From NCBI GenBank assembly GCA_012520195.1, contig JAAYOS010000080.1, forward strand, positions 1-37,507: a stretch of 37,507 nucleotides of DNA, written 5' to 3'. A model generated the notes under the pieces. That model worked only from the letters and a program-made list of their open reading frames with translations. It made no database searches and was not told where the DNA came from. Positions 3,206-25,129 of this stretch are shown here, piece after piece (within the stretch, counting starts at the first letter, position 1; each line of letters begins with the position of its first letter). The DNA is from Clostridiales bacterium (GTDB lineage Bacteria > Bacillota > Clostridia > Oscillospirales > JAAYOS01). The translations under genes were made by a program, and so were the position numbers.

Positions 3206-3219
3206 CGAACATATATTCG
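3206..3219. promoter_or_regulatory. LexA (SOS) box 1
   Basis: CGAACATATATTCG matches the Gram-positive SOS box CGAAC-N4-GTTCG with one changed base. It lies upstream of the dinB -35 and between dinB and the chromate transporter promoter. Confidence 0.65.
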
Positions 3220-3257: not shown

Positions 3258-3261
3258 ATTA

Positions 3262-3273
3262 GTACATACGTTC
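3262..3273. promoter_or_regulatory. LexA (SOS) box 2 at the dinB start site
   Basis: GTACATACGTTC fits GAAC-N4-GTTC with one mismatch and overlaps the expected +1. The wider segment ACGTTCGAGTG is nearly the exact inverse of the segment around box 1 (CACTCGAACATAT against CACTCGAACGTAT), so the promoter sits between two facing repeats. Confidence 0.55.
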
Positions 3274-3288
3274 GAGTGGTGATCGAAA

Positions 3289-4536
3289 ATGCGAACAATT
3301 CTACACGCGGATGCGAACAGTTTCTATGCATCGGTCGAATGCCTGCACCACCCCGAAATCCGTGACAGAGCGGTAGCCGTGGGTGGTGACGCGTCTCTAC
3401 GCCACGGGATCATCCTTGCGAAAAACGAGCGCGCGAAAGCAATGGGTGTTAAGACGGGCGAGGCGCTCTGGCAGGCAAGACAGAAATGTCCCAACCTACT
3501 CATATTAAAGCCTAACTTTTCGCTCTACCTGCGCTTTAGCCGGCTACTGCGTGAAATGTTTTACGAGTACTCGGATCTGGTGGAGCCGTTTGGGCTTGAT
3601 GAGGCCTGGATCGACGTAACCGGCAGTACCGGCCTCTTCGGTGGGGGCTATAAAATTGCGGAGCAAATACGCAGACGTGTAAAGGATGAGCTAGGAATTA
3701 CAGTCTCTGTGGGCGTTGCAAACAATAAGATTTTTGCAAAGCTGGCAAGCGACATGAAAAAGCCTGATGCCGTCACCAATATTACCGAATCAAACTATAA
3801 GGAGCTTGTCTGGCCGCTGCCCGCCAGTGATCTCTTATACGTGGGGCCATCGACAACACGAAAGCTCCGCCGGTACGGTGTAAACACCATAGGCGATATC
3901 GCAACTGCCGATTCCGGTTTTCTCCATCGACTCCTGGGCAAGACGGGCTATATACTGCACGGATTTGCAAACGGCCTCGACAGTTCACCTGTCGAACAGC
4001 TCGGTGAAGAAGCGGTCATTAAGAGCATCGGAAACAGCACTACAACTCCTCGAGACCTTGTTTGCGAGGAGGATGTAAGGATCATATGCTGGCCCCTCTC
4101 TGAGAGTGTCGCTTCACGGCTTCGCAAACATGGGTTTGTGTGCAGAGGAATACAGATCTCTGTCCGCGATAACAGTCTTTTTTCCTTTGAACGCCAGTGC
4201 CAGTTGGAGCGTCCCTCCGCACTGTCATACGACATCTTTGATAGCGCTATGACCTTATTCAAAAATAACTATGACTGGGCAAACCCCATACGGAGCTTCG
4301 GCGTGCGGGCGATCAACCTTGTCGGCTCGGATACCGCAGTGCAGACCTCTCTTTTCGAGGATGAGGAGAGGCGTCAAAAGCGCGAGAGGCTGGATCTGGC
4401 GGTGGAGGACATCCGCATGCGATTCGGACATTCCAGCATCCGTAGGGCAATTATTCTACAAGATCATACGCTGAGTGGGCTCAACCCCTCCGAACACACT
4501 ATCCACCCGGTCGGATACTTCAAACCCACAAACTGA
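3289..4536 (+). CDS. dinB: Y-family DNA polymerase IV (DinB/UvrX type)
   Basis: Translesion polymerase, 415 residues. Catalytic metal ligands are visible as D8 in LHADANSFYASVE and D104-E105 in FGLDEAWIDV; Y13 sits at the steric-gate position. The helix-hairpin-helix region is near 180-225, the little finger about 240-345, and QTSLF at 352-356 resembles the beta-clamp binding pentapeptide. Residue 10 is Asn rather than the Asp common in E. coli-type DinB, closer to UvrX/YqjW-like relatives. Two SOS boxes and a good promoter lie upstream, so DNA-damage induction is expected. A 79-residue partner gene follows 60 bases downstream. Confidence 0.93.
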   Translation: MRTILHADANSFYASVECLHHPEIRDRAVAVGGDASLRHGIILAKNERAKAMGVKTGEALWQARQKCPNLLILKPNFSLYLRFSRLLREMFYEYSDLVEPFGLDEAWIDVTGSTGLFGGGYKIAEQIRRRVKDELGITVSVGVANNKIFAKLASDMKKPDAVTNITESNYKELVWPLPASDLLYVGPSTTRKLRRYGVNTIGDIATADSGFLHRLLGKTGYILHGFANGLDSSPVEQLGEEAVIKSIGNSTTTPRDLVCEEDVRIICWPLSESVASRLRKHGFVCRGIQISVRDNSLFSFERQCQLERPSALSYDIFDSAMTLFKNNYDWANPIRSFGVRAINLVGSDTAVQTSLFEDEERRQKRERLDLAVEDIRMRFGHSSIRRAIILQDHTLSGLNPSEHTIHPVGYFKPTN

Positions 4537-22225: not shown

Positions 22226-23205
22226 TATCCCCCTAGTCCTATCTTCTCAGCAACACGCAGCTTCGCGCTCCGTGAGCGAGGATTAGCTGTTATTTCCCCT
22301 TCTGTAGGTAAAATCGGTTTTCTGCTAACGTGCTTAAGTGTCGGCTTTTTTCCGCATACGCATACGGGAAAATCCGGTGGGCACTCGCAGCTCTTTACCT
22401 TACTCGAAATAAATCTCTTTACTATTTTGTCCTCAAGTGAGTGGAAAGTGATTACGGCAAGTCTTCCACCCGGAGCTAAAATTCTCTCTCCTGCTTCTAG
22501 CGCTTCCTCAAGTGCCTTAAGCTCATCGTTGACGGCGATTCGGATGGCCTGAAATGTTCGCTTTGCCGGATGCTGTTTTTCTCTCAGTGCCTTAGCCGGC
22601 ATTGCCTCTTTAATTATCTCAGTCAACTCAGTTGTTGTACGTATTGGCCTATTGGCTACTATTCTCGATGCGATTCTTGGAGCATAGCGCTCCTCACCGT
22701 ACTCATAGAGGATTTTTTTAATGTCCTCGTAATCCCAGTTATTGACGATATCCGAGGCAGTCATCACTGATTGCCTGTCCATTCTCATGTCGAGGGGTGC
22801 CTCCCCAGTATATGAAAATCCCCTTTCAACATTATCGAGTTGGGGTGAGGATACCCCTAAATCCATCAGAATACCATCCACCTGATGGACTTCTCTTTGC
22901 TCAAGCTGCTTCGAAATCTCTCTAAAGTCACTTTTTATAAACGTAATTTTATCTCCGAAACGTGCTAATCTATCTGCTGCAGCCTCTATCGCCTCTTCGT
23001 CCTTGTCAAAGCAGAACAGTCTTCCTCCATCTAGCTTTTCGGCTATGGCCTCCGAGTGTCCACCTCTTCCAAGTGTGAGGTCGACGTAAGTACCGTCTGG
23101 CCTTATGTTTAATGCCTCGATAGATTCCTGAAGCAATACTGGTATATGTCCAGCCACTTCATGGCTACTCAAATCGTGTTCGGACGAACGGTCATATCCG
23201 GTCAT
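22225..23205 (-). CDS. rsmH: 16S rRNA m4C1402 methyltransferase RsmH
   Basis: SAM-dependent N4-methylation of C1402 in 16S rRNA (formerly MraW). 326 residues with HIPVLLQESIEAL, the SAM loop DLTLGRGGHSEAI, ILMDLGVSSPQLD, RGFSY..PLDMRMD and the C-terminal ITFHSLEDKIVKRF. A Cys cluster (CECPPDFPVCVC) stands near 275-286. Start ATG overlaps the mraZ stop by four bases. Confidence 0.96.
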   Translation of the reverse strand: MTGYDRSSEHDLSSHEVAGHIPVLLQESIEALNIRPDGTYVDLTLGRGGHSEAIAEKLDGGRLFCFDKDEEAIEAAADRLARFGDKITFIKSDFREISKQLEQREVHQVDGILMDLGVSSPQLDNVERGFSYTGEAPLDMRMDRQSVMTASDIVNNWDYEDIKKILYEYGEERYAPRIASRIVANRPIRTTTELTEIIKEAMPAKALREKQHPAKRTFQAIRIAVNDELKALEEALEAGERILAPGGRLAVITFHSLEDKIVKRFISSKVKSCECPPDFPVCVCGKKPTLKHVSRKPILPTEGEITANPRSRSAKLRVAEKIGLGG

Positions 23206-23618
23206 ATCCCCAAAATCTCCATTGCTTCCTCAAGACTTTCAGCTGTATATTCCTCGTTGATGGCATCCCATTTCTCTGCATCCCATATCTCGGCGCGGTT
23301 GGACAGTCCAATTATTGCTACATCCTTCTCCAATCCGGCATATTCCCTGAGTGGCAGAGGAATAACTATTCTTCCCTGAGAATCTGGCTCACATTTTTCT
23401 GCGCTTCCGAATATCATCCGCTGCAAACTTCTCGCTTTTGATCGTGGCAGAGCTGCTATTCTTTCCTCGATCTCCGTCCATACATCCTGCGGATAGACAA
23501 CTAGACAGTTGTCCACTTCCTTTGTTACATAGAAACTATCGCCTAGCTCGTCGCGCAGCTTTGCGGGTATAAACAGTCTTCCCTTTTGGTCTATTACATG
23601 CCTGTAAGTACCTGTCAT
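23202..23618 (-). CDS. mraZ: MraZ, regulator of the dcw cluster
   Basis: AbrB-fold DNA-binding protein of 138 residues with two repeats: YRHVIDQKGRLFIPAKLRDE near the N-terminus and CEPDSQGRIVIPLPLREYAG near 75-95. In other bacteria MraZ rings bind short direct repeats upstream of mraZ and control the whole operon; matching repeats lie at 23696-23725. ATG 23618 is chosen because AAGGAG stands six bases before it; the frame is open up to 23645. Confidence 0.95.
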   Translation of the reverse strand: MTGTYRHVIDQKGRLFIPAKLRDELGDSFYVTKEVDNCLVVYPQDVWTEIEERIAALPRSKARSLQRMIFGSAEKCEPDSQGRIVIPLPLREYAGLEKDVAIIGLSNRAEIWDAEKWDAINEEYTAESLEEAMEILGI

Positions 23619-23695
23619 GGCGAGCTCCTTGCAACTTAGGCTCACTTTATCCGAGTTTGTTCCTGCTGTGGTATCGTAGTGCTCAATTGTGGGAA

Positions 23696-23725
23696 TCTAA
23701 ACCCCTTTGCTCCACTTTGCTCCAC
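23696..23725 (-). promoter_or_regulatory. MraZ binding region, three 10-bp repeats
   Basis: On the minus strand GTGGAGCAAA is repeated exactly twice and followed by GGGGTTTAGA, a 10-bp period that fits known MraZ boxes (TGGGN or AAAGTG-type repeats spaced by about five bases). The repeats begin about eight bases after the -10 of the mraZ promoter. Confidence 0.75.
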
Positions 23726-23732
23726 CACCATT

Positions 23733-23761
23733 AGTATAATCATAATCGCAGAAAAATGCAA
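23733..23761 (-). promoter_or_regulatory. sigma-A promoter of the dcw operon
   Basis: Minus strand TTGCAT (23761-23756), 17 bp, TATACT (23738-23733). The leader before mraZ would be about 108 bases and contains the MraZ repeats. Confidence 0.75.
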
Positions 23762-23831
23762 GAGGATTTTTGAAACATTTTTCTTTATTTTTACCCGTAT
23801 TTTGCAGAATATCAGCTATTTTTCGAATAAA

Positions 23832-23843
23832 AAACATATGTTC
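23832..23843. promoter_or_regulatory. LexA-like site upstream of the dcw promoter
   Basis: AAACATATGTTC, followed by G, is one base from GAAC-N4-GTTC and shares the ATAT core of the dinB box. It is 71 bp upstream of the mraZ -35, and AT-rich context makes chance possible. Confidence 0.35.
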
Positions 23844-23906
23844 GAGTCTTTGCGACTCGGCCTTATCATCATAATAAATGTCTCTCAACTACTGTAGCTA
23901 GCATCC

Positions 23907-23954
23907 ATACTATATGTTGTGATCACAGTGCGAAATCACCACGACATATAGTTT
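23907..23954. promoter_or_regulatory. pair of NrdR-like boxes, 32 bp centre to centre
   Basis: ATACTATATGTTGTGA (23907-23922) matches 13 of 16 and CCACGACATATAGTTT (23939-23954) 12 of 16 positions of the NrdR box aCaCwAtATaTwGtgT as I remember it. NrdR boxes normally occur in pairs three helical turns (31-32 bp) apart, exactly as here. The two are also near-perfect inverted repeats (12 of 13), so an RNA hairpin is the alternative reading. No ribonucleotide reductase gene is nearby. Confidence 0.5.
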
Positions 23955-24042
23955 ATTGCGGGTTATCTAAAAGGCCGGCTTGCAGACTGAACATTTTCCT
24001 GTGTCTGATGTGTTTTCTTCTCTATCTCAAAAAATGTGCAAA

Positions 24043-24109
24043 AAGTACACACCCTCCACTTCATGACAAACATGAAATAGAGGGTGTGCTACAAATCTAA
24101 GGTGTACTT
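24043..24109. terminator. long composite hairpin after the coaD operon
   Basis: CACACCCTC (24048-24056) pairs with GAGGGTGTG (24080-24088), with TTCATG/CATGAA inside. Minus strand: TACTTTTTGCACATTTTTT follows, a terminator for the gene ending at 24159. An alternative outer stem AAGTACAC/GTGTACTT (24043-24050, 24102-24109) is followed on the plus strand by a T-rich run. Confidence 0.65.
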
Positions 24110-24158
24110 CTCTTAATTTTTCAGTTCTACTGGAAATCCAACAACAACTCTGGGGCAA

Positions 24159-24617
24159 TTACTTGCTTGCCGCTTTGAACTTCTTTCGTGAGTCTCTAAC
24201 CTCATTTAATGCCTCTGCCAGCGCTTCCTCGGTCCGCTTCAGTGCATCATCGACATATTGATTAGTGGCAATCCGTATCTCATTTGCACGTTGCTCAGCC
24301 GACTCAATGAGATCATTAGCTTTCTGGCGCGCTGTCAGGGTTATCTCTTCACGAGCCACCATCGCACGTGCACGCTCTTCGGCCTGCCTTCTAATGGCCT
24401 CCGACTCACGCTTTGCACTCCCGAGAATGTCGTTTTTCGCTTCGACAATCTTCCTAGCCTGTTCTAAGTCGCTTGGTAGCATTGCATTAATCTCTTCAAT
24501 CAGTTCCATTGCACGGGAGCGATCAAGAACACACTTCTCCCTGCCAAACGGTAGGGTAAAGGAGTCTTGAATCATGTTATAAAGAACGGTCAATAGTTCT
24601 TCCACGCCATCTGCCAT
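24159..24617 (-). CDS. coiled-coil protein conserved next to coaD
   Basis: A 152-residue soluble protein. The N-terminal part (about 1-60) has FTLPFGREKCVLDRSRAMEL and LIEEINAMLPSDLEQARKIV; the rest is a long charged coiled coil (SAKRESEAIRRQAEERARAM, then AEQRANEIRIATNQYVDDAL). It resembles proteins of Clostridia that are annotated loosely as ATPase subunit-H-like or DivIVA-like; no enzymatic motif is present. The MAREEI-type segment and Ala/Glu repeats suggest a scaffold. ATG 24617 follows GGTGGG and lies 17 bases after coaD. Function unknown. Confidence 0.75.
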   Translation of the reverse strand: MADGVEELLTVLYNMIQDSFTLPFGREKCVLDRSRAMELIEEINAMLPSDLEQARKIVEAKNDILGSAKRESEAIRRQAEERARAMVAREEITLTARQKANDLIESAEQRANEIRIATNQYVDDALKRTEEALAEALNEVRDSRKKFKAASK

Positions 24618-24634
24618 ACATCCCACCTGCCCTA

Positions 24635-25129
24635 TCAATTATTTTTGCTGCGCTCACTTAGTTTTTTCATTATGACCGGTAGTATTTTCTCCGGAACAAA
24701 CCCCTTAAGATCGCCGCCAACCGATGCAATAGAGCGTGCAGCTGTTGAACTCACATGTGCCAGGAGGCTGTCGGCCGGGAGAAAAACTGTGTCCAACTCA
24801 TGGTTTAGAGCTCTGTTGATTAGAGCCATCTGATACTCAACATCAAAGTCGATGTTTCCGCGAATCCCTTTAACAAGTGTTGTTGCTCCGAGTTCGGCTG
24901 CGAGCGTTGCAGTTAGACCATGGCTACTTACAACCTCAACGTTTTGGAAGTCGGAAATAACAGCACCTAACATTTCAACGCGCTCTTCTGCGGTAAACAG
25001 AGTTGTCTTATCTACATTTACCATTACGGCAACGTATAGCTTATCGAACAGTTTCGACGCCCTCTTAATGACGTCGAGGTGTCCAAGTGTTACGGGATCA
25101 AACGAGCCGGGGTATAAGGCAATTTTCAT
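24635..25129 (-). CDS. coaD: phosphopantetheine adenylyltransferase CoaD
   Basis: Fourth step of coenzyme A synthesis: 4'-phosphopantetheine plus ATP to dephospho-CoA. The 164-residue nucleotidyltransferase has YPGSFDPVTLGHLDVI (with the T/HxGH-type motif as TLGH), VKGIRGNIDFDVEYQMA and the ISSTxxR-type segment AHVSSTAARSIAS. ATG 25129 with GGAGGAG upstream is the start; the longer frame begins inside rsmD. Confidence 0.96.
   Translation of the reverse strand: MKIALYPGSFDPVTLGHLDVIKRASKLFDKLYVAVMVNVDKTTLFTAEERVEMLGAVISDFQNVEVVSSHGLTATLAAELGATTLVKGIRGNIDFDVEYQMALINRALNHELDTVFLPADSLLAHVSSTAARSIASVGGDLKGFVPEKILPVIMKKLSERSKNN

Follow-up and report, generated by a model that had tools for sequence, protein, structure and literature searches.

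A candidate NrdR operator upstream of the mraZ division operon in a Clostridiales bacterium and its relatives

Results

Upstream of mraZ, the first gene of a division and cell-wall operon, the window (the whole stretch of DNA that we analyzed, 37,507 bp) carries two 16-bp palindromic matches to the NrdR motif. Judging from their sequence and arrangement, these boxes very probably bind NrdR, and the mraZ operon is probably regulated through them. The first-pass annotation had counted 13/16 and 12/16 matches to the consensus, and a direct reading of the sequence gave the same counts. It had also described the 32-bp separation of the boxes as the spacing used by NrdR. Indeed, an offset of 32 bp leaves a spacer of 16 bp, in good agreement with the 15 to 16 bp found in most known NrdR box pairs and with the 14 to 17 or 24 to 27 bp of pairs bound by NrdR (PMC12051234).

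The pair lies inside the 540-bp gap between mraZ and a co-directional gene of 159 amino acids, from which it is separated by a terminator (Table 1). As had been annotated, mraZ is the next gene on the minus strand and no nrd gene is adjacent; the distance to the mraZ promoter, given as 146 bp, was measured as 145 bp from the pair to the −35 element, with the pair upstream. Location at the promoter of an nrd gene, the habit of known NrdR operators, is thus not found here. Binding does not require such a location, which is simply customary among known operators, but its absence bars the label "nrd operator." The region of the pair is present once in the genome, which ruled out a repeat or mobile element.

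Table 1. Features of the mraZ upstream region, in coordinates of the window
Feature	Position	Strand	Basis or remark
mraZ, first gene of the division/cell-wall operon	23202..23618	-	TIGR00242 above cut-off; ATG at 23618
GTGGAG-type repeats	23702..23729	-	Sequence; presumably MraZ autoregulatory boxes, by the MraZ box consensus
mraZ core promoter, TTGCAT-17-TATACT	23733..23761	-	−35 at 23761-23756; aligned in relatives
LexA/SOS-type box CGAACATATGTTTT	23831..23844	-	Between the pair and the mraZ promoter; no other exact CGAACATATGTTYK genome-wide
NrdR-like box proximal to mraZ	23907..23922	+	ATACTATATGTTGTGA; 17.2 bits with the nrdD-trained matrix
Spacer between boxes	23923..23938	.	16 bp, box offset 32 bp
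NrdR-like box distal to mraZ	23939..23954	-	CCACGACATATAGTTT on the plus strand, AAACTATATGTCGTGG on the minus strand; 11.5 bits with the nrdD-trained matrix
Intrinsic terminator of the upstream gene	24047..24089	-	Separates the upstream gene from the pair
Upstream co-directional gene, 159 aa, unnamed family	24159..24638	-	ORF; no Pfam match

The genome assembly around the window (2.45 Mb, 209 contigs) encodes NrdR on contig C110 (TIGR00244, 214.6 bits) and the class III reductase NrdD on contig C3, while a search for a class I or class II reductase gave no PF02867 match. Its own nrdD promoter carries the boxes TTTGTATATATTGTAT and ACACAATATATTGTGT, 32 bp apart and directly upstream of TTGACA-17-TATAAT. 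The nrdD operator therefore shares both box type and register with the pair upstream of mraZ, and the clearly different nrd box that would have spoken against the annotated pair was not observed. When the genome was scanned with the pattern CWAYATRTWG-N22-CWAYATRTWG, allowing up to three mismatches, only two places came within one mismatch, the nrdD promoter and the mraZ-upstream site, with a pattern that was partly tailored to the latter. Since two inner positions had been widened with knowledge of the mraZ site, we built an independent matrix from nrdD promoters.

This palindromic matrix was trained on the nrdD upstream regions of 49 genomes of the order, with pairs 30 to 33 bp apart; 45 of these regions yielded a pair, most commonly at an offset of 32. 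In the matrix scan, a check that had been proposed with the annotation, the mraZ-upstream pair reached a total of 28.7 bits (17.2 + 11.5) and outscored two thirds of the true nrdD pairs. No other pair in the 37.5-kb window reached 14 bits, and shuffling the upstream region 200 times never produced a pair of 28.7 bits. In addition, the core ACTATATGTTGTG of the proximal box recurs in the nrdD box of G014.

The annotation had further suggested looking for the same pair upstream of mraZ and of nrd genes in related genomes. Besides the nrdD regions mentioned above, 24 of the 148 sampled genomes of the order carry a pair scoring 18 bits or more no further than 420 bp upstream of mraZ. They come from at least seven families (f1, f2, f10, f13, f19, f23, and f26, plus three named loci) and include the cultured relative [Clostridium] viride DSM 6836 (L087), with a pair of 23.9 bits. 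In a first set of 63 genomes, the upstream region outscored all of its 200 shuffles in 15 cases, and 12 genomes passed 18 bits, compared to a mean of 0.27 and a maximum of 3 when 200 permuted palindromic matrices were used. A second set, drawn separately and comprising 85 genomes, again had 12 above 18 bits (mean of 0.42 for 300 permuted palindromic matrices) and 8 above 22 bits (mean of 0.09). Offsets of 31 and 32 dominated in this second set and accounted for eleven genomes, compared to one or two for each other offset. At least one of the 300 permuted matrices reached 15 genomes at 18 bits in this set, presumably because its columns fell almost in their true order. The occurrence of the pair is patchy, as 124 of the 148 genomes have none at 18 bits.

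As a control, 381 kb of other, mostly coding DNA was taken from 20 of the genomes and contained no pair at or above 18 bits. Throughout 824 kb of fetched loci, such pairs were confined to nrdD loci, to mraZ, and to two further places in the genome of the window (G000). One of these, at G000:C57:102-148 (L067), lies next to the rpsI terminator and is very strong, with 36.8 bits at an offset of 31; the contig ends there, so that the gene served lies off the contig, and relatives gave no name for it. The other, weaker pair (20.3 bits) is located at G000:C202:848-895 (L072) and adjoins a DnaA-box-like run (TTATACACA, TTATCCACA), a region that is possibly origin-like or DnaA-binding.

Closer to the window, the conservation on which the annotated reading depended was found in the sister species G001, whose MraZ is 86% identical. 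Its pair is degenerate but significant (20.5 bits), keeps the 32-bp register, and occupies the same alignment columns with changed letters, 137 bp from the −35 element compared to 145 bp in the window. The pair was also found in the family members G002 and G008 and was weak in G003 (11.4 bits), and no trace of it was seen in G005, G006, G007, and G009. A narrow scan of relatives with a fixed consensus had suggested no conservation; we set this result aside, as the nrdD promoters of the order show the textbook consensus to be too strict.

The pair recurs at mraZ whatever the neighboring gene. A gene of the 159-aa type stands beside mraZ in 45 of the 148 sampled upstream regions, and it is the upstream gene for ten of the 24 pairs and was not recognized as such for the other fourteen. 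Because the upstream genes differ between families while mraZ is constant, we associate the pair with mraZ. The distance from the pair to the mraZ −35 element ranges from 46 to 201 bp across the genomes with a pair, and in some relatives (G070, G124, G225, G177, and L087) a terminator-like hairpin intervenes between pair and promoter. Variable distance and intervening hairpins fit poorly with a simple occlusion of the mraZ promoter and would call for looping, NrdR oligomers, or activation. NrdR boxes at nrd genes, by contrast, sit at the promoter. This geometry is the weakest link in assigning the pair to the mraZ operon.

Could the boxes instead serve an unseen short transcript that starts near them? 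We consider this unlikely. In its favor are the hairpins just mentioned and, in the window itself, a weak hairpin (GAGTC-GCAAA-GACTC) followed by a T run near 23837, but the hairpin-bearing relatives leave only a few tens of nucleotides for such a transcript. We found no other promoter-like match in 23600-24180, in a scan that is weak and misses the mraZ promoter too. No Rfam family matched, and the sole small ORF (63 aa, 23697-23888) is not conserved. The small NrdR-controlled transcript that the first-pass annotation had offered as its second option thus found little support. We also regard it as highly improbable that the pair was left behind by an nrd gene once divergent to mraZ. This arrangement exists today in G010 (L053/L212), where nrdD is divergent from mraZ and one NrdR pair lies in the intergenic region common to both. 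However, NrdD adjoins mraZ in only this one region among the 148, which speaks against a divergent nrd gene as the explanation, and the presence of a relic in many families would not be expected. Moreover, since ten of the 24 pairs have the usual 159-aa-type gene on one side and mraZ on the other, the arrangement of G010 looks derived.

The resemblance to NrdR boxes might also stem from palindromy only, if the two boxes were the arms of an RNA or DNA hairpin acting as a terminator or attenuator. The arms in the window match at 13 of 16 positions and fold well (z −3.7), and boxes lie within terminator-like stems in G034, G122, G031, and G092; some pairing is expected, as two palindromic boxes are complementary by nature. 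Across genomes, however, no significant covariation was detected, arms re-paired between genomes matched almost as well as those within a genome (8.7 versus 9.2 of 16; P = 0.06), and most pairs folded no better than shuffles. The near-equal matches and shuffle-level folding speak against a conserved RNA stem, so that the stem with compensatory changes, named beforehand as evidence against an NrdR site, did not materialize even though the pair in the window folds well. Permuted palindromic matrices also fail to find the pairs, and the 31- to 32-bp spacing is that of NrdR, which makes the hairpin very unlikely as an explanation. Finally, a short and degenerate motif in AT-rich intergenic DNA invites chance resemblance without function, but in view of the shuffle, permuted-matrix, and control-DNA results we regard this as extremely improbable. 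An NrdR operator acting on mraZ is thus the reading that we retain.

The LexA-type box of the window matches 12 of 14 positions of a CGAACATATGTTCG-like Gram-positive palindrome and is the best in the genome; the next best sites are found in front of a DNA polymerase IV gene, also in the window, and of a radical-SAM gene for DNA repair. We consider it a putative LexA site, based on this palindrome shared with DNA-repair genes of the genome. A DNA polymerase IV-like gene (3289-4536) is immediately preceded by two LexA-type boxes, at 3206-3219 and 3261-3274. LexA-like boxes were found upstream of mraZ, mostly 160 to 240 bp from the start codon, in 40 of the 148 genomes, compared to 1.0 (95th percentile, 4) for permuted palindromes at the same score. 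The NrdR pair and a LexA box occur together in 3 genomes and the pair without the box in 21, an avoidance that is not significant (P = 0.085); the window holds both.

Two other motifs were observed upstream of mraZ. TTTACATAA (13 regions) or TTGACATAA (7 regions) is present in about 20 of the 148 upstream regions, for example in L039 and L042, and mostly on one strand; permuted words of this type averaged 0.6 with a maximum of 4 among the same 148 regions. Separately, terminator-like hairpins in L042, L089, G092, and G122 have as their stem an NrdR-like palindrome that is perfect or nearly so (e.g., CCACAAGATCTTGTGG).

Discussion

We propose that the two palindromic boxes, three helical turns apart, constitute an NrdR operator in the regulatory region of mraZ. 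NrdR reads ATP and dATP through its ATP-cone, and high dATP would bring it onto the pair, from where, 145 bp upstream of the −35 element, it would tune transcription of the division and cell-wall operon. Control could be negative, through looping or oligomers, or positive, as reported for topA in Pseudomonas. The suggestion of the first-pass annotation that dNTP status could be linked to the division and wall cluster is supported by the conservation of the pair, by the nrdD box, and by the lack of a conserved stem, and we regard it as a candidate link.

Like the NrdR operators of ribonucleotide reductase genes (PMC12051234, PMC12176259), the pair in the window consists of two palindromic 16-bp boxes with a 15- to 16-bp spacer and the same base preferences. 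Unlike them, it precedes a division operon without any nrd gene and is located well upstream of the promoter. A target outside the nrd genes has been reported in Pseudomonas aeruginosa, namely, topA (PMC4409342), but there a single box is involved in activation of topoisomerase I, whereas the mraZ region studied here has a full pair.

A DNA-status regulator acting on mraZ has a precedent in LexA. A study of the SOS meta-regulon of the gut identified mraZ as a LexA target with binding in vitro, B. subtilis LexA having bound an mraZ site from the gut by gel shift (PMC3998124). This link between LexA and mraZ in gut Firmicutes is therefore already known, and a LexA-type box is present here too. 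LexA senses DNA damage, whereas NrdR senses dNTP/ATP. As for NrdR, we found no literature linking it to mraZ or dcw among titles, abstracts, and term counts, in a search largely confined to papers outside subscription. The link of DNA precursor supply to cell division that the recurrent pair suggests is thus, as far as we could find, unreported.

We see an even chance that the division operon of this order is wired both to NrdR, for dNTP supply, and to LexA, for DNA damage, through sites upstream of mraZ, with lineages using one or the other and a few using both. If so, transcription would be the level at which division is adjusted to the supply of DNA precursors. The usual view of NrdR is that of a repressor dedicated to ribonucleotide reductase genes, with topA in Pseudomonas as a reported exception. 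If an NrdR operator recurs at mraZ, the division operon would be a second target, with a direct and testable route from dNTP supply to division. Together with the earlier link to LexA, the region upstream of mraZ would become a point where the status of the DNA is read.
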